From a bacterium (lineage in GTDB: Bacteria > Armatimonadota > UBA5829): a DNA stretch of 34,137 nt. Shown in pieces: positions 13,039-25,158 of this stretch (the stretch's first letter is position 1; every line of letters starts with the position of its first letter). Location: positions 1 through 34,137 of the forward strand of contig JAJFTD010000115.1 in NCBI GenBank assembly GCA_021373255.1, given 5' to 3'. The translations under genes were made by a program, and so were the position numbers. The notes beneath the pieces were generated by a model, which saw only the letters and a program-made list of their open reading frames with translations, made no database searches and was not told the DNA's origin.

Positions 13039-16000
13039 CTATGCGGCGAACAGGCCCGCGTCCCACATGGAGTCACACAGTGTGTCTGTGAAGCTGCCTA
13101 CCGGCATTGGACGTCCTATGAAGTAACCCTGTACCTGGTCACATTCTATCGACCGCAGGAATTCTAATTGTTCCAGTGTTTCCACGCCTTCAGCAACTAC
13201 TTCCAGTTTCATAGAATGAGCCATAGCAACCACAGCGCTGGCGATTGCGGCATCGTCGGGGTTGGCGGTGATGTCTTTTACGAATGATTGGTCTATCTTA
13301 ACAGCGTCAATTGGCAGTTTCTTGAGATAGCTCAGGGATGAATAACCCGTGCCAAAGTCGTCAATGGAGATCCGCACTCCCATCGACTTAAGTTGATTCA
13401 GGAATGACGACGCAAGATCAGGATTCTTAACTAACATACTTTCAGTAATCTCAAGTTCAAGATACATTGGGTCAAGCCCAGTTGTGTCCAGTGCATTCTT
13501 CACCGATTCTATTAGATCCCTGTCCTGGAACTGCCGCGCGGATATATTTACAGAGATCCCGATTGCAGGGAATCCCTGGTCCTGCCATGCTTTGTTTTGA
13601 GCACAAGCGGTGCGCAAAACCCAGTCGCTTATCGGCAGTATAAGGCCGCATTCCTCAGCTAGCGGTATAAACTGTGCAGGAGAAACCATACCAATGTTAG
13701 GATGCTTCCACCTGATAAGGGCCTCGGCACCGAGGGTCATTCCCGTGTCAAGTTGAACCTTCTGCTGATAATAAAGCATCAGTTCTTCTCTTTCAATAGC
13801 CCTGCGCAGGTTTGTTTCCAGAGTCATCTTCTCCATAGCCGCGGAATTGAGCCCTTTGGTATAGAACTGGAAGTTGTTCCTGCCCTGTTCTTTGGCACGG
13901 TACATCGCGGTGTCCGCACTCTTCACAAGCGTTTCCACATCCAAACCGTCACATGGATATGTGCTGATGCCCATACTAGGCGAGACAAACATCTCATGCC
14001 CATCAATTAAAAAGGGTTCAGAGAATGACTGCAGTACTCTTTGCGCCGCAATTGCAGTGTCCTCCGGCTTTGTTATATCCGACACTATGACTGTGAACTC
14101 ATCTCCACCCATCCTGGCGAGTGTATCACCTTGCCTAATGTACCCCGCTAATCGATGAGCAACCTCTTTTAGGAGCATATCGCCTACGTTGTGTCCCAGT
14201 GAATCGTTAATAAACTTGAACCTGTCGAGGTCGATAAATATAACTGCCAGCATTTCATCATTTTTCTGCACATGTGCAAGCCTGTGTGTGAGCCTGTCAC
14301 TGAATAGAAGCCTGTTCGGAAGACCAGTGAGCGGATCGTGGTAAGCAAGGAAGTCGAGTCTTTCTTCATAAACTTTCTTATCTGTGATGTCACGCTTGAT
14401 AGCTACAAAATGTTCAATAGAGCCATTGATACTCCTGACAGGAGTGATTGTCATGTCCTCGGTGTAGTAGCTCCCATCTTTGCGCCGGTTAGTCACTTCG
14501 CCGTGCCATGTATTACCTTGATTGATAGTTTTCCAGAGGTCGGAGTAGAAGTCGCCACCTTGTTTTCCAGACTTTAATACATTCGGCTTATGTCCAGCAG
14601 CTTCCTGGAAACTATAACCGGTTTGCCGTTCAAAGGCGGGGTTTACAAACTCAATCATGCCTTTAGCATTGGTAATTACAATCTGATCGCTGGTGGCATT
14701 CATCGCTGATGTTTGAATGCGAAGGAGCTTTTCAGCACGTTTTTGCTCAGTTACATCCTCGATGCATAACAGGACTAATCGTTTACCATCTATGTAAAAG
14801 AGTGCGGTAGTGAGGAACACATCCATCTCACGTAATTGACCATTAGCGTTGATAGCTATTGTCGCATTTATTCGTTCGCTGTTGAATCCCGTCTCCAGTA
14901 TGTTTGCCACAGCCAAATGGATCTTGCATTCTGTGCAAGCCATTCCAGATCCACAGCCTGTTGGGCCATCGTTTACGTGAACACAACTTAGTGCGTTTCC
15001 ATATGCGAGACCGATAAGTTCATTGGGCTCAACTTGAGTAATTCTACCAACGTTCAGGTTCGCTTTATGGACTTTACATTCATCATCAACAAGAAGAAGC
15101 GTGCCGGGAGCATTGTAGAATATGGCAGCCAATTCAGATTGGCTTTCATTCAGATCGTCTTCCATCTGCTTCCGCTGCACAGCAAGAGCGTATAGTGACG
15201 CCAGCCGCGCAACCACATCCATATCATGTTCGGTATAATCACGCCCTGGGTTCGCAAGGGCAATAAGCCCCACCAATCGATCTCTTGTGAGTGCCGGGAA
15301 CGCAAGGAGCTTTTCTATCGGGATATGGCCTTTTGGCACACCAACTGAGCGTTCATCCGTGGATGGTGAGTTTGATAATACCGGCTTTCTATTCTTAAGA
15401 ACCCATCCCCATAAGTTGTTGAACGATTTGAACCTGATATCCTTATCCGGTATCTGGCATGTATCCCATACGCTCTGGGACATTGTAGATGAAACCAATG
15501 TTCCATCCGTCGGGTCCATGTAGCCTACGAATCCAAAATCGCTGCCTGTAAGTGATTGCCCATGTTTGAGTACCAGGTCTGAAATTTCGTCAACACTTGC
15601 AGATGCGAGAAGTGCCTCTGATAACTCGGCGAGAGCTGAGTCTTCTCTAGCCTTTCTTGCCAATTCTTCGAGCGCGCTTCGTCGCACCGTAATATCCTCA
15701 CCTGAGCACAGTGTGCTGCATATCCGGCCAGCCTCATCACGTATAATGGTGTTGTGCCAGGCAATTACACGTTGTTCACCGCTTTCCGTGATTACGGAAC
15801 TCTCGTAATAATCAACCATTTCCAGCTCGCCTGATAAAAGGCGAGTATATGATCTCTTTACTTGTTCTCTAATATCTTCAGGCACGAATCTATCGAACCA
15901 GTTGGCTCCTATAATTTCATCCTTTTTGCATCCGAGAACCTCACGGCCCAGCTTATTCATCATCTGAATGAGCCCATTAGTATCAATGACGATCATTATA

Positions 16001-16560
16001 ACCTTGGCTGCATCGAGGTAAGTCTGTGCTCTTACTTTTTGCTCACGAAGAGCATCGGCTGTAGCTCTTTCCTCGGAAACATCGGTCCAGATAGATGCGA
16101 TGCTTTCTACATTACCTTCCAGGCCAAATACAGGATTGAGCACTACATACCAGGTAACTTTGATCCCATTAGGTTTAATGCAATCGGCCTCAAACCCACA
16201 TTGAGCGCCTTCAAGGACAAGATGTAATGCATTTTCAACGATTGGCCTGGTTGGCAGTGGCCATGAATCGACAAAGCGTTTACCGATCACATCGCTCTCG
16301 CGCCACCCCATGCGACGTAAGCATGCTGGGTTTATACTGAGGTAGTGCCCATTGCGATCAAATGCAGCTACACCATTCGGGGAGCCATCCATGAGTCCCT
16401 TATAGTGTGATTCTGAGCTTATGATACGTGAGCGAAGCCTGGAAAGGTAGATGTTGGTGATTATGGCAACAATCATACAGCACGATAACAACGCACCGCC
16501 AACGAACAGGCAATGCATATACGTGAGCTGGATAGAGTGCCATTGGAGGAGATTACACAA
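13039..16560 (-). CDS. Membrane PAS-PAS-GAF-PAS-PAS-GGDEF-EAL cyclic-di-GMP enzyme
   Basis: 1173 residues. One membrane segment (~17-39) and then PAS (~50-165), PAS (~178-292), GAF (~305-460), PAS (~470-605), PAS (~615-730), GGDEF (~733-905) and EAL (~918-1165). The cyclase motif GGDEF is intact at 818-822, with the product-inhibition RxxD site at 809-812. The phosphodiesterase domain keeps EAL (946-948), SVNISARQF, LEITES, IDDFGTGYSSL, VKIDQSF and AEGVE, so both activities look possible. The third PAS domain carries a Cys cluster (C526, H528, C536, C542, C545). The frame starts at TTG 16560; ATG at 16518 is the alternative, and neither has a clear ribosome site. It is a single gene. Confidence 0.93.
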   Translation of the reverse strand: MCNLLQWHSIQLTYMHCLFVGGALLSCCMIVAIITNIYLSRLRSRIISSESHYKGLMDGSPNGVAAFDRNGHYLSINPACLRRMGWRESDVIGKRFVDSWPLPTRPIVENALHLVLEGAQCGFEADCIKPNGIKVTWYVVLNPVFGLEGNVESIASIWTDVSEERATADALREQKVRAQTYLDAAKVIMIVIDTNGLIQMMNKLGREVLGCKKDEIIGANWFDRFVPEDIREQVKRSYTRLLSGELEMVDYYESSVITESGEQRVIAWHNTIIRDEAGRICSTLCSGEDITVRRSALEELARKAREDSALAELSEALLASASVDEISDLVLKHGQSLTGSDFGFVGYMDPTDGTLVSSTMSQSVWDTCQIPDKDIRFKSFNNLWGWVLKNRKPVLSNSPSTDERSVGVPKGHIPIEKLLAFPALTRDRLVGLIALANPGRDYTEHDMDVVARLASLYALAVQRKQMEDDLNESQSELAAIFYNAPGTLLLVDDECKVHKANLNVGRITQVEPNELIGLAYGNALSCVHVNDGPTGCGSGMACTECKIHLAVANILETGFNSERINATIAINANGQLREMDVFLTTALFYIDGKRLVLLCIEDVTEQKRAEKLLRIQTSAMNATSDQIVITNAKGMIEFVNPAFERQTGYSFQEAAGHKPNVLKSGKQGGDFYSDLWKTINQGNTWHGEVTNRRKDGSYYTEDMTITPVRSINGSIEHFVAIKRDITDKKVYEERLDFLAYHDPLTGLPNRLLFSDRLTHRLAHVQKNDEMLAVIFIDLDRFKFINDSLGHNVGDMLLKEVAHRLAGYIRQGDTLARMGGDEFTVIVSDITKPEDTAIAAQRVLQSFSEPFLIDGHEMFVSPSMGISTYPCDGLDVETLVKSADTAMYRAKEQGRNNFQFYTKGLNSAAMEKMTLETNLRRAIEREELMLYYQQKVQLDTGMTLGAEALIRWKHPNIGMVSPAQFIPLAEECGLILPISDWVLRTACAQNKAWQDQGFPAIGISVNISARQFQDRDLIESVKNALDTTGLDPMYLELEITESMLVKNPDLASSFLNQLKSMGVRISIDDFGTGYSSLSYLKKLPIDAVKIDQSFVKDITANPDDAAIASAVVAMAHSMKLEVVAEGVETLEQLEFLRSIECDQVQGYFIGRPMPVGSFTDTLCDSMWDAGLFAA

Positions 16561-16666: not shown

Positions 16667-16711
16667 AGAGAAAACCCCTACTCGCTGGGATGCCTCAAAG
16701 CGGGTAGGGGT
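16667..16711 (-). terminator. Intrinsic terminator of the CHAT-sigma-anti-sigma operon
   Basis: Arms 16674-16685 and 16700-16711 form a 12-bp stem with one G-U pair. Read on the minus strand, the hairpin is followed by TTTTCTCT. It lies 28 bp past the anti-sigma stop codon and separates this operon from the GGDEF-EAL gene. Confidence 0.75.
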
Positions 16712-16738
16712 ATCTACTTTTATATATAGCTGATGGGA

Positions 16739-18097
16739 TTACTGGCTGATTCCAGCGGCACCGTAGAGAAGTTTCTTAGCAAGGTCAGAGTGTCTGTTAG
16801 CTCTGCGAAGTGCTCTGTACTCCTGTTGTGCTTCATCAGTAAGCCCGGCTGATTCATATGCCACACCAAGCGCCAGATGCGAACCAGGAAGACTATTTTT
16901 CACTTTAGCTATCAATCTTGAGTCTTCGTCTGAAATCACTCTAAACTTCGCTGGTGTTGATTCAGCCCAGGAATCACTCTCGCTAAATCTGACTCCAACA
17001 CGCCACGTATATACCTGGCCTCGCTGAAGTGGTTGAGACGGGGTGAATGAAGCTGCCTGGGTGACTTCGTCCACTACTACTCGCCCGGCACTATCATAAA
17101 CTCTGACCCTGTAAGACTCAGCAAGGTCAACACTTTTCCACACCAGGCCAGGTCTATTGCTCATCAAAACTTTGCCTTTAGGGCCGACAAGTTTGGGTGC
17201 AGTTGGAAGAGGGCTGAAATCGCCTCCGCCTCTTGTTGCGATTGAAGCCATAGCCATCTGAACCGGTTTGTCAAGTTTGATCTTGCCTGTGCGGAGTTTC
17301 TCATCAATCGCAGCAGCCACACGGGCCTCAAGTGCTGTTCTTACGGGCTGTCCATTTGCATTGGCCATAGCTAACTTGCCATTTTGCTGTATAACTTTGT
17401 AAGAACCATCACTAAGCATGGTTTTAGCAGTAGGCTTAACCGTATTCGGGTTTTCTGCAACCATACTCGGTTTTGGTGTGACAGGATTTGGTGTTAATTC
17501 AGGTGTTGGCTGAACCCCTACCGTCGCAGGTTGAGGCTTCGTAGACGGCGCAGTTGTCGTAGCCCCCGGCATTGAATGCTCAACAGCCGTTGGGTTCACT
17601 GCAACAGACACAGGTGCTTTTGAGACGGCATGCATATTGGTTATGCCGAATGCAATAACAGCCAGAACAGCCGCACCAGTTACGCCAGCAAGCGTTCTCT
17701 TCCAGATTCTGATGCCATGCCTCTCGTGATGTTTGCTCATTCCCGGCCGCACGATAACATTCTGCCGCATTGTCGCATGAGATCTCAACTCTCTTATCCG
17801 GTCAATATCTCTGCAGCACATCTCGCAAAGGTTCGCGTGGGATTCAACTCCGGCACGTTCGTCTAGCGGCAACGCGCCATCCACATACGCTGAAAGCACA
17901 CCATAGTCAGGACAATCCGCTATATCCATTACAGCCGTGCCGAAATCACGTTTGGCGCTGTTGAAACCAGGCAGTTCGCGTAGCTGAGCTTTGCACTCAG
18001 GACATCCAGCGAGGTGTTCGTCAACAGCCAGCAACTGTTCAGGATCCAGTTTGCCTTTTATGAATTGTATTAACTCTTTCTTGTCTATGCACTTCAT
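16739..18097 (-). CDS. Membrane anti-sigma factor with two zinc fingers and large outer domain
   Basis: 452 residues from the ATG at 18097 (GTG 18118 is an alternative, seven codons longer). Two zf-HC2-type fingers follow the H-x3-C-x2-C pattern: H28/C32/C35 and H87/C91/C94, the second with an extra adjacent Cys. These usually hold an ECF sigma factor inactive. A single membrane segment lies at about 135-153. Outside the membrane come a Pro/Thr-rich linker (~165-230), a charged helical part, an Ig/Fn3-like beta domain (~310-400, with YRVRVYDSAGRVVVDEV and YTWRVGVRF) and a TPR-like C-terminus. The gene directly follows the sigma-factor gene. The long linker is a plausible place for regulated cleavage. 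Confidence 0.8.
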   Translation of the reverse strand: MKCIDKKELIQFIKGKLDPEQLLAVDEHLAGCPECKAQLRELPGFNSAKRDFGTAVMDIADCPDYGVLSAYVDGALPLDERAGVESHANLCEMCCRDIDRIRELRSHATMRQNVIVRPGMSKHHERHGIRIWKRTLAGVTGAAVLAVIAFGITNMHAVSKAPVSVAVNPTAVEHSMPGATTTAPSTKPQPATVGVQPTPELTPNPVTPKPSMVAENPNTVKPTAKTMLSDGSYKVIQQNGKLAMANANGQPVRTALEARVAAAIDEKLRTGKIKLDKPVQMAMASIATRGGGDFSPLPTAPKLVGPKGKVLMSNRPGLVWKSVDLAESYRVRVYDSAGRVVVDEVTQAASFTPSQPLQRGQVYTWRVGVRFSESDSWAESTPAKFRVISDEDSRLIAKVKNSLPGSHLALGVAYESAGLTDEAQQEYRALRRANRHSDLAKKLLYGAAGISQ

Positions 18098-18186
18098 TGT
18101 CTTATACCTGCGCCTCACACGTTAAGCAGACGCAAGGTTCTCCGCCATGTTGCCAATAATGATCTCAACAGAATATAAAAATGTCT

Positions 18187-19245
18187 TTATGCCAGCGCCT
18201 GTTCTTCGTCAAGAGACAGGGCAGACTTGCGAGTTCTTCTTCTGATCCGTCCCCAGGCCTTAAACCTAACGCTGGGTACCGCTCTTGCCTGCACACCCAA
18301 CTCTTCAGCGGTCTCAGCATCGGGCAAAGGCAGTTTTGCGATCAGTGATGCTAACTGTGCGGGGGAAAGATCCAGAGAATCAGCTACGCATCTCATACCA
18401 ACAGCCGCCACAAGAGCCATCACCTGATCAGCGCCCATCCCATAGAGAAGCGCCTTTCTCTGCTTTATAGATAGTTCCAAAAATTCTTTCCAGAACCAAT
18501 CTATCACATGGCTGAACCAGCCCGCATCCACTACTTGTTTTTCCACATCCGTATCTGGCGAGATCAGCCAATCAACAGGCGCTCCGCCCTCCTCGTCACC
18601 ATCGGGTTGTGCGTCGATTGAGAGTGGTTCAGTGGTGCGCGTTTGCGTAAGGTCCGCAATACAACTAGTAAGCGCATCCACATCTACAGGGCCGCCGCAG
18701 TAATCCAGAACCGCCGCTGCGACCTGGTAAACGGGCAGTTCCTGCGGGTCTTGATTCTGAAGAAAACCTGTTCTGAACTTGCGTGAATTGTCGGTGATTT
18801 CCCTGCACTTTGAGCTTGCCTGCTTGCTGGAACCTAACCATTTGGCAAATCCACAGAGCCGTGAACCCGTATCCGCACTTTCCCAAAGCGCGAAGCCATC
18901 GACATTTGCCTTGCCTGAGAAGATTTCAAGTATCTCCAGCTTGAGGTTATACCACGTGGGCCGCTTTCGACGAATGGCGTCACAATATCGATTGTGTACC
19001 GCGCGGCGGATGAACGCTTCGATGTTGTCGATGCTGGTGTCCGACTCGCCGTTCTTGAGCGCGTTGATCTTAGTCCAAATCGCTAAAATGCAGTCTTCCT
19101 CAAAGTCTTCCAGGTCAGACGTCTCTTTTTTTGACGCAGCCCTGTGCACGAGGTTGCCGACCACGTTAGAGAGTTCTTCCCAATATTGATCGCCCTTGAT
19201 TCCAGGCGTATGTATATAAGCCTCAAGCAGCCTCTGTGCGTCCAT
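18187..19245 (-). CDS. ECF-type RNA polymerase sigma factor with long insertion
   Basis: 352 residues from the ATG at 19245, with GAGG five bases upstream (a TTG one codon earlier is possible). Region 2 is at about 45-97 (FEEDCILAIWTKINALKNG, FIRRAVHNRYCDAIRRKRP), which binds core polymerase and the -10 element. Region 4 is at about 257-340 (LSIKQRKALLYGMG ... LSPAQLASLIAKLP, SVRFKAWGRIRRRTRK). About 155 residues separate them, much more than in ordinary ECF factors, and contain YQVAAAVLDYCGGPVDVDAL, possibly a small helical domain. Similar long sigma-like proteins next to zf-HC2 anti-sigma genes are familiar from Acidobacteria-like genomes (my recollection). It lies 38 bp after the CHAT gene and 89 bp before the anti-sigma gene. 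Confidence 0.78.
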   Translation of the reverse strand: MDAQRLLEAYIHTPGIKGDQYWEELSNVVGNLVHRAASKKETSDLEDFEEDCILAIWTKINALKNGESDTSIDNIEAFIRRAVHNRYCDAIRRKRPTWYNLKLEILEIFSGKANVDGFALWESADTGSRLCGFAKWLGSSKQASSKCREITDNSRKFRTGFLQNQDPQELPVYQVAAAVLDYCGGPVDVDALTSCIADLTQTRTTEPLSIDAQPDGDEEGGAPVDWLISPDTDVEKQVVDAGWFSHVIDWFWKEFLELSIKQRKALLYGMGADQVMALVAAVGMRCVADSLDLSPAQLASLIAKLPLPDAETAEELGVQARAVPSVRFKAWGRIRRRTRKSALSLDEEQALA

Positions 19246-19283
19246 CAACCCTCACTGCCAACTCTACATTCTTAATTACTTCG

Positions 19284-22200
19284 TCACCACGGATTTCCAT
19301 ATAAAGCAAAGCAAGCCCAATAGAACGGGTGGGCGAATTGTGCTGAGTTTATAAGTGACATCTGTGCACGCCTGAGGGCCTCGTATCTGGACATGCCCCT
19401 GTTCAGGCTGCGGTAGAAGTCGCTCATTATCTTCGACGCAGCATCATCAGATACCTTCCACTGACCACCCATTACAGACTTCGCTCCCGCCAATGAAAAT
19501 ACCTCGGCGGCTTTTGAAGGACCGGAAGAAACAGGATCACTGGATGATATTGAATTGCACGCCGAGAGCACCACAAGATCCAAATGCGTGTTTTCTATAT
19601 CCGATAAATCGTCGATTGTGATGCTTCCGTCCGAGTCTCCTTCCGAAGCCAGCATCATTTCAAACTTAGCCGGATTCGGATCGATCCTGTAGTGTGCGGC
19701 GATGTGAAGTATGCTCGCATTCTCACATTCCTTCAAAAAATTACTAGCATTAGCCCGTGGTCCGAGATACCACTGGCAGTTTATATAAACCGCTCTTATA
19801 GCTTTGGCTTCTTCTTGAGCCCCTTTGAGGTTGCTTTCAGGATCAGCAAAAACAGCCAACCTGTCGGAAGTGGGATCAATAGCCTTGCTATCCCGGCTGA
19901 GCAGATTAGAAAGCGTTCCTCTGGACAGATAACTAACACCGTAGTCCTGTATCAAGAACCTGGGCGTATCACTGCTCCCCGGCGATACCAGTGCCTGCAT
20001 CGGAATACCTGCAAACTCTGAGGGTACGGCAAATACAAGTAATTGAGAATCTACAAGATCGGGCTTTACAGGCGCAAGCAGAGCATCGTAAAGCGAAGAC
20101 AGCGGGCGTGTAATATCCGAGAAAACAGAAACCCGCCAATCGTTAGCCGCAGGAATGGGTATGCCCGCGCTCAAACTCTCCTCACAACTCTTCAAGGCTT
20201 TGCGCAGCTCAGCGACTGTTTTATCTACGTCCTGACGAGGTACTGCTAGTTCCCGACATGTGGGTTTGCCATAACTGCATGTAAACACATATACAGAAGA
20301 GTCTGTAACCATATACTCGATCACCGTGGCTATACGAGACAACGTCGCGCGGGATCTGAATAGATCGAGTGGGTCAACAGGCAGGGCGTTGTAGGTGGAC
20401 GGATACTGCTTTGCCAGCATCCAGCATGTCTGCGTATAAGCAGCCCAGTTGTCTGCCAGCAACCTTTCCTTGCCTGGCGTATCTTCGGGTGATGTAATTT
20501 GATCTCCGCCGAGTATATCCAGGCTGCCTGCAAAGCTTGCTACAGCAGTATCGGAGCCATTATTCATACTTCTAATAAGGTCGGGCAACCACAGATAGCG
20601 CTTAGCCTTGAGCATCAACTTCCGGGCATCGTCTAGTTTGTCTTGATGAACACATGCGGACGCTAAGTCCCTGTATAGGCTCTGTAAAGTCTCACTTCGC
20701 TTTGGATCAAGACCCGGATCGACGTTTTCTTGCGCGTATTTAGATTCAATATCTTCAAGTGCAGCTTCGAGAGTATTCCTTGCCTCATCTATTTTTTTTG
20801 CAGAGGTTTGTGTAGAAGCAAGCTCCAATGCCACATCCCCAGCCGCCCATGAGTCGCCCACCTGAGTAACATACCTTATTCGTGCATCTTGGAGGTCTTT
20901 TATGGCTTGATCATATTGCTGATGCTTTGCGAGCAGGAGTCCACGTGCCTCAAGAACTCGTGCCGCACCACGCACGTTTCCAGCCCCCTCAATTATGGGG
21001 ACTAGTTCAGTAAAGCCTTCAATGGCGTTCTGCAAGTCACCAATGTCAATAAATGCCTGGACCATATCCTGTACTATTTCCGCTGCCAGTGTCTTCTTTC
21101 CGGCTTTCATTGCAGTAGTGGCGGCTTCTCTTCGCACTTCAAGCGATTCTTGAGGTATACTTTGCTGGTCCAAAACGGCTGCGAGTGACCGCAGGTAGGA
21201 AATGCGTCGATCAACTAACCCCGATTTTCCTGAGGCATCCGCCAATCTGCGCCAAGCCAATGCGGATTTTTTGAGATCTTCAAGAGCTTGATATGCCCAT
21301 GCACCTTTTTCAGCCTTTACCAGAAGAGGATCTCGTGTCTTTTGAGGCATGGACGGTGACTTCTCAAGTGTGGTCATTGCCACATCGCCTGAAGAAGCGG
21401 CTTCGGTCAAAACACTTTCTCGCTTACGCAGAGCTTCCTGAGCGTTGGCTGGCTGATTAGCTGCCGAATAAGCAGAGGAGAGCTTTTCGTAAGTTCTCGC
21501 CAATAATATGGGGTCCGCAAGAACCTGACTTGCTCGCTTCGCTTCCTGCAGGAGATCCACGGACCTTGCCACATTGCCGTTATCTGCAAAAAGATCAGCG
21601 ACCTTTATAAGATTAGTGATTAATATGCCATAAGAGTTGCTGGCGTGGGCCCAGGTTCGCAACTGATCGAGACCATACGCTGTCATCATTTCTAATGCTT
21701 TTGTGGTTTCGCCCGCAGCCCTCAGCGCCTCTCCAGCCTTCATGAACTCGATCCCCGCCATATCCCTAAAGCGATAACCGCTGGAGTCCTGACTAGACAG
21801 CAACACCCACTGCCGGGCCGCCTGGGTGTAGTTATCAGTCGCTGCCGAGTAGCGGCCGGTCCAAGCATTGAGCGTTCCGTAGTCATCATAGACAACCGCG
21901 CTCGACTGTGTGCAATCATAAGCTGTAAACACCCACGCTGCACGGCTGTAGCAGGTCTCAGCCTGACGGAATCGGGTCATATCATAGAAATAATGATCGC
22001 CTAATTGCTTAAGCACCAACGCTTCGGAAATGTCTAACTGTAGCTTCTGGCAAATTTCAACGAGGGCAGTAAGGGAGTTTGTGGCCTCCACTGGATACGA
22101 TTCTCGGTAGTCCATAGCCATCTGATATTCTCTGCGAATATCCGAAATCAATGCTACCCGTTCATCACGAGGCGGTACATCAGCTTTACCAACCTGCTGC

Positions 22201-22562
22201 AATGCGACTGTAAGCATCTGGTCAGCCCAATCCAACACAGGGTCGTTTAACTGTTTGTTGAGTGCGGGGATCACTGTATTGATGTTTTTTACATCCGCAG
22301 GCGCACCCGAGGATTTTGACATAAATCGATATACGATAAGATCGAGCGCCAATTGGGTCGATTCAAGCCGGGAACTGTTTACAGAGTTGGAAACGCGCGT
22401 GGGCAACTGCGCCTTTGTTGATTGAGACAACTGGGCGAGGATTTTCGTTTTTTTGCCGGCTGATTGGCACCACCCGAACGGAGCTGTGGCCAGTATAATC
22501 AGAACCGCTGTTGTAAGGAGCAGGATTAATTTGCGAATCAACGTATCGGCCTCGGCACACAT
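19284..22562 (-). CDS. Exported TPR-CHAT caspase-like protease
   Basis: 1092 residues from the ATG at 22562. A TTG at 22541 with GAGG eight bases upstream would give the tidier signal peptide MIRKLILLLTTAVL and may be the true start. The hydrophobic segment ends at a plausible cleavage site (APFGWCQSA). Residues ~185-660 are helical TPR-like repeats. The C-terminal ~350 residues are a CHAT domain: the catalytic dyad is H957 (ILHIAAHYRID) and C1002 (LDLVVLSACNS), 45 residues apart, then GAKSVMGGQWKVSDDAA and the family's final FYWACFALYGNPW. Both catalytic residues are present, so an active cysteine protease is expected, apparently outside the cytoplasm. First gene of the CHAT-sigma-anti-sigma set. 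Confidence 0.88.
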   Translation of the reverse strand: MCAEADTLIRKLILLLTTAVLIILATAPFGWCQSAGKKTKILAQLSQSTKAQLPTRVSNSVNSSRLESTQLALDLIVYRFMSKSSGAPADVKNINTVIPALNKQLNDPVLDWADQMLTVALQQVGKADVPPRDERVALISDIRREYQMAMDYRESYPVEATNSLTALVEICQKLQLDISEALVLKQLGDHYFYDMTRFRQAETCYSRAAWVFTAYDCTQSSAVVYDDYGTLNAWTGRYSAATDNYTQAARQWVLLSSQDSSGYRFRDMAGIEFMKAGEALRAAGETTKALEMMTAYGLDQLRTWAHASNSYGILITNLIKVADLFADNGNVARSVDLLQEAKRASQVLADPILLARTYEKLSSAYSAANQPANAQEALRKRESVLTEAASSGDVAMTTLEKSPSMPQKTRDPLLVKAEKGAWAYQALEDLKKSALAWRRLADASGKSGLVDRRISYLRSLAAVLDQQSIPQESLEVRREAATTAMKAGKKTLAAEIVQDMVQAFIDIGDLQNAIEGFTELVPIIEGAGNVRGAARVLEARGLLLAKHQQYDQAIKDLQDARIRYVTQVGDSWAAGDVALELASTQTSAKKIDEARNTLEAALEDIESKYAQENVDPGLDPKRSETLQSLYRDLASACVHQDKLDDARKLMLKAKRYLWLPDLIRSMNNGSDTAVASFAGSLDILGGDQITSPEDTPGKERLLADNWAAYTQTCWMLAKQYPSTYNALPVDPLDLFRSRATLSRIATVIEYMVTDSSVYVFTCSYGKPTCRELAVPRQDVDKTVAELRKALKSCEESLSAGIPIPAANDWRVSVFSDITRPLSSLYDALLAPVKPDLVDSQLLVFAVPSEFAGIPMQALVSPGSSDTPRFLIQDYGVSYLSRGTLSNLLSRDSKAIDPTSDRLAVFADPESNLKGAQEEAKAIRAVYINCQWYLGPRANASNFLKECENASILHIAAHYRIDPNPAKFEMMLASEGDSDGSITIDDLSDIENTHLDLVVLSACNSISSSDPVSSGPSKAAEVFSLAGAKSVMGGQWKVSDDAASKIMSDFYRSLNRGMSRYEALRRAQMSLINSAQFAHPFYWACFALYGNPW

Positions 22563-22621
22563 CGTGGACAACCGGAGCGCAAAATGCGGCGCATCTTAAC
22601 AGATTCTAGCACATCAGGCGA

Positions 22622-22635
22622 GTTCTTGCCAGAAC
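22622..22635. promoter_or_regulatory. Palindrome between the CHAT operon and pagL
   Basis: GTTCTTGCCAGAAC is an inverted repeat (GTTCT, 4-base spacer, AGAAC) in the 150-bp divergent interval. On the minus strand it lies about 20 bases upstream of a TAGAAT box, so it overlaps where the CHAT-operon promoter should be. It may bind a dimeric regulator, or its GAAC half may be part of an ECF-type -35 element. Confidence 0.35.
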
Positions 22636-22712: not shown

Positions 22713-23276
22713 ATGATAAATAGAATCACACTACTCGCAGTATTTCTTATAATTACTTGCACACATCTATCTGCAGAAGCAGATGATATGAAGTTTAACT
22801 CGTTTTTGCCAGGTGACCGTGAAGTCTCTATTTCAGCAGGTTGGGGCCAGAATTACGATATCCCGCGTGAATCTCAGCACATCTCGCTTTACACTATGAA
22901 TCTTCGCTACGCAACCTTTGTATCTAGAGAATCCCAATTGGGCTATAACATTGGTGGTGGAGTAGACACTGTTGATGATGGCTCAACAATCTGGGGTAAT
23001 GCAGATTACCGGCATTATTTTATTAGAAGAGGAAGCACCGCATTCGCATGGAATTTCCGCTTTGGGTTCATGTATTTTCCTAATGGTGTAGAAGAACTCG
23101 GCGGAAACCTGAACTTTAATGAACAGTTTGGAATCACTTTCCAGCAAGCCGTTACATCTAGCTCCGCAATAACATTCGACTGCTCTTTTTCACACACCTC
23201 AAATGCCGGCCTTGCCGATCCTAACCTGGGTGTAAATGCCACATTCTTCAGCTTAGGATATTCCTGGTTCAAATAG
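22713..23276 (+). CDS. pagL: PagL-like lipid A 3-O-deacylase (outer-membrane barrel)
   Basis: 187 residues with a signal peptide (MINRITLLAVFLIITCTHLS, cleaved near residue 20). The mature part is alternating beta-barrel sequence ending in an aromatic-rich terminal strand (LGYSWFK). The PagL signature HTSNAGL gives the catalytic His161 and Ser163. The third catalytic residue, a glutamate in Pseudomonas PagL, is not obvious; the equivalent stretch reads NLGVN. The expected reaction is removal of the 3-O acyl chain of lipid A in the outer membrane, implying the host makes LPS. It is divergent from the CHAT operon and followed by two envelope proteases. Confidence 0.75.
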   Translation: MINRITLLAVFLIITCTHLSAEADDMKFNSFLPGDREVSISAGWGQNYDIPRESQHISLYTMNLRYATFVSRESQLGYNIGGGVDTVDDGSTIWGNADYRHYFIRRGSTAFAWNFRFGFMYFPNGVEELGGNLNFNEQFGITFQQAVTSSSAITFDCSFSHTSNAGLADPNLGVNATFFSLGYSWFK

Positions 23277-23385
23277 AGCTATTACCGCCAAGGTTTGTGC
23301 GTGTGCGAATTTGTGGCACGTACATAAGGGAAAATGCGTCTAAGATTATTGAGTAATCGTATACATAGATAGGCGGTGATCATAG

Positions 23386-24153
23386 ATGCAAAAGTCACAC
23401 AGCATTGTGATTTTAATAATGGTTTTGCTTATTACAGCAGCTGCGGCATTGCCCAGCTATGCGTTAATGCTGGTATCGCGGTCGATGGAAGTTAGTGTTG
23501 GAAAACAGGTCCAGCAGGATGTGATTCGGCAGTATGGGGGATTGAGCACTGATCCCATTGCCACACAACGTGTTGCCAGAATTGGCAGGCAGGTAGCAGC
23601 AGTATCGCCGAGAAGGGATGTTACCTATACCTACCAAGTGCTCAACTCCAACATCATTAACGCATTCGCTGCTCCGGGTGGGCCTGTGCTTATCACGAAG
23701 CGATTGGTTGATATGCTTACTGATTCACAGTTGGCGTTTGTTCTTGCACACGAAACTGGACATATAGCAGCCCAGCACGGCAGAGACGCGATAAACCGCG
23801 CTTTGCTTGCACAGGGCATAGGTTCGCTGCTATTTGGTAGTTCAAGCAGTGCAATTACGCAAGGTGTAAATATCATGTACACGCTATACAATCGTGGTTA
23901 CAGCAGGTCGCAGGAATACCAGGCCGATACATATGGAGTGCAGATAATGGCTGGTGCCGGTTATAATCAAGAAGCTGCAATTGAAGCCCTTGCGAAGCTG
24001 GGAATGCAGAGGACGGGTGGAATAAATAGATACCTTTCCACTCACCCTGATGTGCCTGATAGAATAAATCGAGTAGCATCGCTGATTGGCATATCTCAAG
24101 CAAGAGAGCAACAATTGATAAGACAGGCACAGGCTCAACCTGGCGCACGGTAA
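23386..24153 (+). CDS. Periplasmic M48 zinc metalloprotease (BepA/LoiP-like)
   Basis: 255 residues. An N-terminal hydrophobic segment (~7-26, ending SYA) acts as a signal peptide. The HETGH zinc motif is at 122-126, and the third ligand is E177 in YSRSQEYQADTYG. This is the soluble M48 domain seen in outer-membrane quality-control proteases such as BepA and LoiP, without the TPR part. GGCGGTGAT precedes the ATG. A terminator-like hairpin follows, so HtpX downstream is probably transcribed at least partly on its own. Confidence 0.88.
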   Translation: MQKSHSIVILIMVLLITAAAALPSYALMLVSRSMEVSVGKQVQQDVIRQYGGLSTDPIATQRVARIGRQVAAVSPRRDVTYTYQVLNSNIINAFAAPGGPVLITKRLVDMLTDSQLAFVLAHETGHIAAQHGRDAINRALLAQGIGSLLFGSSSSAITQGVNIMYTLYNRGYSRSQEYQADTYGVQIMAGAGYNQEAAIEALAKLGMQRTGGINRYLSTHPDVPDRINRVASLIGISQAREQQLIRQAQAQPGAR

Positions 24154-24168
24154 ACTTGTAGAGTTATA

Positions 24169-24202
24169 ATAACCCAGGGCAGGTAAATCCACCCTGGGTT
24201 AT
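24169..24202 (+). terminator. Terminator-like hairpin after the M48 gene
   Basis: Arms 24169-24179 (ATAACCCAGGG) and 24192-24202 are perfectly complementary over 11 bp. The following sequence is A/T-rich (ATATAAAC) but has no T-run, so termination may be partial. Confidence 0.5.
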
Positions 24203-24312
24203 ATAAACAATAAGTAAAGTAGGTAGGAACTCTCAAACGCTGGAAAGCGTAGTACGATTAGTAGTCATGTTGGGTGAGCAGAGGCTCACTATTTGTGATA
24301 TTGAGGCGGAAG

Positions 24313-25158
24313 ATGAACTGGTTCAAAACTTTTCTCCTGATGAGCGCTTTAATCGGGCTCGCACTGTTGGTGGGAAACTTAGTAGGCGGTCGATCAGGAA
24401 TGCTGATAGCGTTCGGAATAGCGGTAGCTATGAATTTTGGCAGCTATTGGTTCAGTGACAAGATCGTATTGAAGATGTATGGCGCCAGGAAATTGGATGA
24501 ATCACAGGCACCACAGTTATTCGGCATAGTCCGCAGACTCACCCAGAGTGCCGGCATGCCTATGCCCAAGGTATACCAGATTCCCGCAGATCAGCCCAAT
24601 GCCTTCGCTACTGGCCGTGATCCCAACCATGCAGCAGTAGCCGTTACCGATGGGATTATGCGTATCTTGGATACCGATGAGCTTGAGGGAGTACTCGGTC
24701 ACGAGTTGGCTCATGTGAAGAACCGCGACATCCTCATCGGAACAATAGCCGCCACAATGGCTGGGGCGATTATGATGTTAAGCAACATGGCCCGATTTGC
24801 GATGATCTTTGGTGGTATGCGAGATGACGACAGAGAGGGTGGCAACCCAATAGTAATACTGCTCGTTGCAATGATAGGTGCATTAGCCGCAACGCTCATC
24901 CAACTGGCAATATCAAGATCCCGTGAATTCGGAGCCGACGCGGGTGGGGCGCAGATATCAGGCAAACCCTGGGCCCTGGCCAACGCACTCCGAAAATTGG
25001 AACAAGGCCGGGAAATGGTCCCAATGGAAGCCAACCCCGCCACAGCTCACATGTTCATAGTAAACCCATTCTCAGCCAGGGGCATAACAAATATGTTCAG
25101 CACACACCCTTCCACAGAAGAAAGAATCGCCCGCCTGGAGAGGATGGGACTAGCATAG
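24313..25158 (+). CDS. htpX: HtpX membrane zinc protease
   Basis: 281 residues from the ATG at 24313, which has GAGG six bases upstream; an ATG 13 codons earlier lacks this. Two membrane segments near the N-terminus (~6-44) and two more around 139-195 flank the M48 site HELAH at 130-134; the third ligand is the Glu of SRSREFGAD. HtpX degrades misfolded inner-membrane proteins with its active site on the cytoplasmic side. With pagL and the periplasmic M48 protease it makes an envelope-maintenance neighbourhood. It is the last chromosomal gene before the integrative element. Confidence 0.92.

Follow-up and report, generated by a model that had tools for sequence, protein, structure and literature searches.

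A predicted sigma factor switch with a separate exported CHAT protease in Armatimonadota

The DdvA/DdvS system of Myxococcus xanthus was reportedly studied by Bernal-Bernal et al. in Science Advances in 2024 (adp1053, cited in PMC12288465). DdvA, described as a transmembrane anti-sigma factor in the titles of PDB entries 8ROT, 8RW5 and 8RLZ, holds the ECF sigma factor DdvS (PMC4374960), which controls a CBASS-CRISPR island (PMC12288465). In a second system, Craspase (Cas7-11, Csx29, Csx30 and CASP-sigma), a TPR-CHAT protease cuts the inhibitor of an ECF sigma factor (PMC10028731). Moreover, CHAT and subtilase genes are found near the sigma genes of the ECF54 group and in other ECF sigma operons, and ECF54 sigma factors were proposed to act without an anti-sigma factor (PMC8999054).

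We analysed a stretch of 34,137 nucleotides of Armatimonadota DNA (the window; contig C188 of a 4.19-Mb assembly), on the minus strand of which three genes, here called CHAT, SIG and ANTI, follow one another in this order with gaps of 38 and 89 bp. The features of the locus are given below with window coordinates and strand.

16667..16712 (-): rho-independent terminator 3' of ANTI; dG -21.8 kcal/mol, z -4.4, followed by TTTTCTC
16739..18097 (-): ANTI, predicted transmembrane anti-sigma factor, ATG start; zf-HC2 2e-12, start chosen from orthologue starts
16772..17146 (-): predicted outer Ig/fn3-like domain and TPR of ANTI; Pfam Ig_Rha78A_N / TPR_14 (weak)
17639..17695 (-): predicted transmembrane helix of ANTI; hydrophobicity peaks at residues 142-160, with positive charges flanking the N side
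17816..17914 (-): second ZAS finger of ANTI, C69-H94-C98-C101; zf-HC2 and orthologue alignment
17993..18091 (-): first ZAS finger of ANTI, C10-H35-C39-C42; zf-HC2 and orthologue alignment
18129..18155 (-): putative ECF-type promoter of ANTI, TGGCAACAT-N14-CGTC; upstream of ANTI in 8 genomes
18187..19245 (-): SIG, predicted ECF-type sigma factor with a long sigma2-sigma4 insert; TIGR02937 6e-4, model matches sigma factors
18526..18915 (-): insert of SIG, residues ~112-241, with a beta hairpin, a helical part and a disordered tail; AlphaFold model
19284..22562 (-): CHAT, predicted exported TPR-CHAT caspase-like protein, 1092 aa from ATG; Pfam CHAT 4e-51, TPR_12 3e-11
19557..19559 (-): codon of the putative catalytic Cys1002 of CHAT; invariant in the orthologue alignment, kept in distant exported CHATs
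19692..19694 (-): codon of the putative catalytic His957 of CHAT; invariant in the orthologue alignment, kept in distant exported CHATs
20523..22163 (-): TPR superhelix of CHAT, residues ~134-680; AlphaFold model and Pfam TPR
22464..22562 (-): predicted signal peptide at the N-terminus of CHAT, approx. residues 1-33; this end is hydrophobic in every orthologue
22603..22632 (-): probable housekeeping extended -10 promoter of CHAT (TGTGCTAGAATC); recurs upstream of orthologous CHATs
22713..23276 (+): PagL-like outer-membrane protein, recurrent neighbour of CHAT; Pfam PagL 2e-12

CHAT, the sole CHAT gene detected in the source genome, belongs by its domain, its His/Cys dyad and its TPRs to the clan CD proteases with TPRs. 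Comparison of its AlphaFold model (pLDDT 84) by VIA-align revealed a fold similar to separase (Z 27.4), Csx29 (Z 26.9), DdvA (Z 18.1) and gingipain (Z 17.2). His957 and Cys1002 showed no variation in an alignment of 13 orthologues and the dyad is retained in the exported CHATs of further families, which suggests that catalysis is under selection. Export of CHAT, predicted from its N-terminus to lead to the same side of the membrane as the outer domain of ANTI, is supported by the orthologues.

The match of SIG to the NCBIfam ECF model TIGR02937 was weak and spread across residues 31-334 around the insert, and a Pfam scan at a threshold of 0.1 returned no sigma factor call. The AlphaFold model of SIG (pLDDT 80) comprises a sigma2 domain (residues ~1-111), the insert (112-241), of which residues 205-241 are modelled as disordered, and a sigma4 domain (242-342). 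Sigma factors were the best structural matches of this model: sigma2 superimposed with E. coli SigmaE (4lup) over 92 residues (Z 9.5, 3.5 A) and sigma4 with isolated sigma4 domains (3hug and 3vep, Z 7.2-7.5). Having sigma2 and sigma4 and lacking sigma1 and sigma3, SIG is, as modelled, a divergent ECF-type sigma factor with an atypical insert. Part of the insert showed a weak likeness to the N-domain of the RNA polymerase delta subunit (E 0.012), which we regard as a lead only. A scan of viral contigs with SIG as query gave no match.

In ANTI, zf-HC2 was matched twice and both fingers follow the pattern C-x24-H-x3-C-x2-C. Seven of the eight finger ligands are invariant in 15 sequences, the remaining one, C10, being conserved in at least 90% of them. 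The transmembrane helix is present in all nine ANTI sequences checked, and the Pro/Thr linker is variable and of low conservation. TPR_14 is common to 14 of the 15 orthologues with weak scores. A GTG at 18118 is a possible start, less likely than the ATG as judged from the starts of orthologues. Finger motif and membrane helix place ANTI among the zinc-finger (ZAS) transmembrane anti-sigma factors, and adjacency and domain content predict that it binds and inhibits SIG. The earlier note had described precisely such a set, namely a TPR-CHAT protein with an intact dyad and a signal peptide, a sigma factor carrying a long insertion and a membrane anti-sigma factor with two fingers and a long outer Pro/Thr linker, encoded by same-direction genes with these two gaps and a shared terminal terminator; all of this was borne out.

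A comparison of sequence profiles with the PDB identified DdvA as the best match for both CHAT (8rot, E 4e-7) and ANTI, the latter by a weak match to the DdvA anti-sigma domain (8rlz, E 0.012), with RsiW and RslA also matched. CHAT and ANTI therefore look like DdvA split in two, and by these profiles DdvA, which the earlier note had not named, and not Craspase, is the nearest known relative. Both systems contain an ECF sigma factor, a transmembrane zinc-finger anti-sigma domain and a TPR-CHAT domain, and DdvA aligns with a His and a Cys at the catalytic sites of CHAT. In Myxococcus, anti-sigma domain, transmembrane segment and TPR-CHAT domain form one polypeptide, whereas they are distributed over two separate genes here; in addition, ANTI has two fingers and an Ig-TPR outer domain of its own, SIG has its long insert, and the CBASS-CRISPR island is the target in Myxococcus.

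The earlier note had taken Craspase as the established parallel and the locus as its CRISPR-free relative. In Craspase, too, a TPR-CHAT protease of similar fold (Z 27) adjoins an ECF sigma factor and its inhibitor. However, the Craspase protease is triggered by RNA and bound to Cas7-11, whereas CHAT carries an export signal, and the anti-sigma factor here is a transmembrane zinc-finger protein, as far as tested of another kind: ANTI has zf-HC2 and a transmembrane segment, and its profile matched anti-sigma factors in the PDB, with Csx30 not among them. A search of the source genome, listed as 100% complete, for a RAMP-family protein such as Cas7-11 gave no match, and Craspase is a parallel of the logic, not the home of this set. 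DdvA/DdvS, with its TPR-CHAT inside a transmembrane anti-sigma factor, and the ECF54 groups, in which CHAT and subtilase genes occur, are nearer.

With the ECF54 group the set shares a CHAT gene near an ECF sigma gene, an arrangement seen with an S8 subtilase in families f11 and f17 of the phylum. It differs from such operons, in which the ECF sigma factor is short and ordinary, a subtilase is present and CHAT has no export signal; the long insert and the weak Sigma70_r2 score argue against placing SIG in ECF54. A cyanobacterial operon on Nostoc plasmid pNsp_b (L204) likewise has a sigma-70 gene, a middle gene (DUF1822) and a CHAT gene in one direction; its sigma factor and DUF1822 protein were considered as relatives of SIG and ANTI and rejected, as no relationship was detectable. 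Finally, the regulated intramembrane proteolysis of RseA (by DegS and RseP) and RsiW also concerns a transmembrane anti-sigma factor with an outer domain; a first cut outside is proposed here as well, and M50 proteases are present in the genome. In contrast to these systems, the site-1 cut would be made by a cysteine protease of the caspase clan that carries TPRs, in place of a PDZ serine protease.

Analysis of the upstream regions revealed that ANTI has its own putative promoter. The sequence directly 5' of ANTI (18155-18129) reads TGGCAACATGGCGGAGAACCTTGCGTC, and a 27-base frame, TGGCAA[C/G]AT-N14-CGTC, occurs 5' of ANTI in eight genomes, four with ANTI after SIG and four with ANTI elsewhere; G007 and G013 have weaker forms. 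In 18 genomes the strict pattern gave 11 sites, eight of them at ANTI, as against two for the reversed control pattern, and a looser version added almost no further sites. The remaining sites are one each in G001, G005 and G008, of which the G005 site, within a cluster of ribosomal-protein-like genes, and the G008 site look incidental. The copy in G001 (G001:C55:17845-17871, L165) lies shortly 5' of a gene for a 253-aa protein, the upstream neighbours of which look phage tail-like by eye. A search for further regulon members with this pattern led to hardly any gene other than ANTI. Judged by sequence, the layout is that of an ECF promoter, it is almost private to ANTI, and it is kept even where ANTI has left SIG; this promoter has not been part of the earlier description and is new here. 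SIG is likely the sigma factor that reads it.

The extended -10 element upstream of CHAT recurs in G001, G003, G004 and G005, in weaker form in G007 and G011, and TGTGNTANAATC is also found upstream of unlinked CHATs. Control of CHAT by the same ECF promoter as ANTI was considered and rejected, because the motif is absent 5' of CHAT and the TGTGNTANAATC element stands there instead. Most simply read, CHAT and SIG would be expressed constitutively, and new anti-sigma factor would be produced by way of the active sigma factor. The proposal of one operon, made on first inspection of the locus, accordingly holds for gene order, gaps and terminator; its transcription is less simple than that of a single unit, because ANTI has its own conserved ECF-type promoter.

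Searches for SIG, ANTI and CHAT in 81 genomes of the phylum, followed by reading of the loci, revealed the order CHAT-SIG-ANTI intact in seven genomes of the same family (G000, G001, G003, G004, G006, G009 and G010) and in one of the distant family f15 (G037), where the identity of SIG is 29%. Conservation only among close relatives, which the earlier note had named as grounds for giving up its proposal, was thus not observed. All three genes are absent from genus g5 (G008, G012 and G014). CHAT and SIG stand together with ANTI elsewhere in G002, G015 and G017 (ANTI being unlinked in family f2 and in G002), and SIG and ANTI stand together with CHAT on another contig in G011 and G007, the SIG of G007 being truncated where its contig ends; genus g4 has CHAT unlinked. 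In G005, where SIG was sought and not found, CHAT and ANTI with its promoter lie apart and a different gene is directly 3' of CHAT; another sigma factor may read the ANTI promoter there, or SIG may be missing from the assembly. In G013 the contig stops short of the place where CHAT would be expected. These patterns of joint presence and absence, together with the departures, indicate that the genes are largely either all there or all missing and that they need not adjoin one another. That the three genes form a conserved functional unit and not a chance neighbourhood is supported by these comparisons; the unlinked CHAT (G007, G011), the unlinked ANTI (G002, G015, G017) and the missing SIG (G005) show that linkage is not absolute, and we count them against the switch mechanism proposed below.

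A profile search detected the SIG family in 27 of 291 genomes. CHAT genes were found beside a SIG/ANTI-like pair in two genomes of f27 (G099 and G101); in G159 (f16) and G069 (f9) one lies near such a pair, and in G232 (f36) CHAT adjoins ANTI. Genes of peptidase C14 caspases lie near such pairs in G159, G069 and G125 (f34); such genes near a long-insert sigma/anti-sigma pair are seen at loci L195, L193 and L060, and at L195 there are two of them, with a WD40 protein. The CHATs of f8 (L137 and L138) also adjoin a long sigma factor, the dyad columns being not reliably alignable in these proteins. A genome has on average about 1.1 CHAT genes among some 3,800, and for a gene picked at random a CHAT would be expected within 6 kb well under 1% of the time. 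The association of CHAT and SIG therefore greatly exceeds chance, also when the relatedness of the genomes is taken into account; this is a rough estimate and not a formal test. In every case tested (f1, f2, f9, f15, f16, f27 and f36), the CHATs accompanying a pair of sigma factor and transmembrane anti-sigma factor have a hydrophobic export-type N-terminus, whereas the CHATs of other sigma-CHAT operons (f11, f17 and f19) have no export-type signal. These findings support a recurrence of the CHAT/sigma association across the phylum.

The phylum also contains a second type of CHAT operon, with a short ordinary ECF sigma factor, a small zinc-finger-like or unknown protein and a CHAT without export signal. 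An S8 subtilase is encoded at three of the loci tested (L106, L107 and L121), and L108 and L122 have similar layouts; by gene content this type matches the surroundings described for ECF54 (PMC8999054). In other branches of the SIG family, a Ser/Thr kinase gene stands beside the SIG homologue (L058 and L062) or the family member has an N-terminal FHA domain (L059:8570-10000, G045), which suggests phospho-control there.

A PagL-like gene and two genes of M48 metalloproteases occupy 22713-25158, divergent from CHAT. The PagL-like gene is also next to CHAT in G003, G006 and G010, in two of these reading into CHAT, and an M48 metalloprotease gene is beside CHAT in G015. Past the terminator, at 13039-16560, a long protein looks by eye like a PAS/GGDEF/EAL signalling protein; it is not beside ANTI in the relatives examined.

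The reading we prefer, and on which we would place even chances, is an ECF sigma/anti-sigma switch in which a separate exported CHAT acts on ANTI, most likely by a cut. In its favour we count the conserved order and the joint absence in genus g5, the distant SIG relatives beside CHAT or C14 caspases, the export-type signals of the accompanying CHATs, the two DdvA matches, the invariant dyad, the ANTI promoter, the M50 proteases, the envelope-type neighbours and the example of Craspase, whose TPR-CHAT protease cuts the inhibitor of a sigma factor. ANTI would sit in the inner membrane, its cytoplasmic zinc fingers holding SIG, and CHAT would be exported to the side of the Ig-TPR outer domain of ANTI. 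Recognition of an envelope signal by the TPR superhelix would activate CHAT, which would then act on ANTI, the likeliest action being a cut in its linker or outer domain (site-1 cut). Membrane and cytosolic proteases, among which the M50 site-2-type proteases present in the source genome are candidates, would finish ANTI and release SIG, and the ECF-type promoter would provide new anti-sigma factor that resets the switch. The genes, their conservation and joint absence, the dyad, the signals of topology and the ANTI promoter are what the analysis shows directly; we infer the binding of SIG by ANTI, the cutting of ANTI by CHAT, the reading of the ANTI promoter by SIG and the envelope nature of the signal. 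The recurrence of the set in distant families suggests a protease that senses envelope trouble and flips the switch, and the separate exported CHAT is likely its sensor or its first-cut protease. The more specific form, in which CHAT is an extracytoplasmic, TPR-sensing, caspase-clan site-1 protease dedicated to a transmembrane anti-sigma factor, is tentative and somewhat below even. In this form CHAT would take the part that DegS has elsewhere, and the set would belong to a larger family in which CHAT or C14 caspases gate sigma/anti-sigma pairs.

The precedent of DdvA may be non-proteolytic. CHAT might be a co-sensor which binds the outer domain of ANTI and shifts its grip on SIG without cutting, as a split-off periplasmic part of DdvA. 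The PDB titles, by which TPR-CHAT belongs to the anti-sigma chain itself in DdvA, speak for this, as does the Ig-TPR unit at the end of ANTI, which is suited to protein binding. We consider it rather unlikely in view of the selection on His957 and Cys1002 suggested above, and because other families have C14 caspase genes close to this sigma/anti-sigma pair; as DdvA itself aligns with the His and the Cys, the contrast provided by the dyad is not decisive. It is still less likely that CHAT is an output of the switch, or is merely co-transcribed, and acts as an exported protease on other envelope proteins with no effect on ANTI. CHAT is separable from SIG-ANTI, and many bacterial CHATs are solitary or stand beside two-partner secretion genes, as this idea would have it, but the apparent housekeeping promoter at CHAT, opposed to the ECF-type promoter at ANTI, the joint absence in genus g5 and the association in distant families argue against it.

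A different question concerns purpose and overlaps with any of these mechanisms. The set could sense phage attack and drive immune genes as DdvS and CASP-sigma do, both nearest characterised systems controlling defence (PMC12288465; PMC10028731). We regard this as improbable: CHAT, SIG and ANTI gave no match to the PADLOC families, the RAMP-family search was negative, and sites of the strict ANTI promoter pattern are nearly confined to ANTI. Because of the PagL and M48 neighbours and the lack of defence matches, a role in the envelope is favoured over phage defence.

Switching by ECF sigma and anti-sigma factors is known; what we judge to be new in the preferred reading is that a separate exported CHAT protease probably serves as its sensor or makes the first cut. 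Proteins of the CHAT and caspase-like kinds are common in bacteria, and few have known substrates. The CHAT-SIG-ANTI set offers a candidate substrate (ANTI), a promoter by which the switch could be read (that of ANTI) and, in DdvA, a natural fusion for comparison. If such a cut is demonstrated, the enzymes that make the first cut in anti-sigma factors would include proteases of the caspase clan besides the PDZ proteases, and a wider logic linking CHAT with sigma factors would have Craspase and DdvA as two of its branches.
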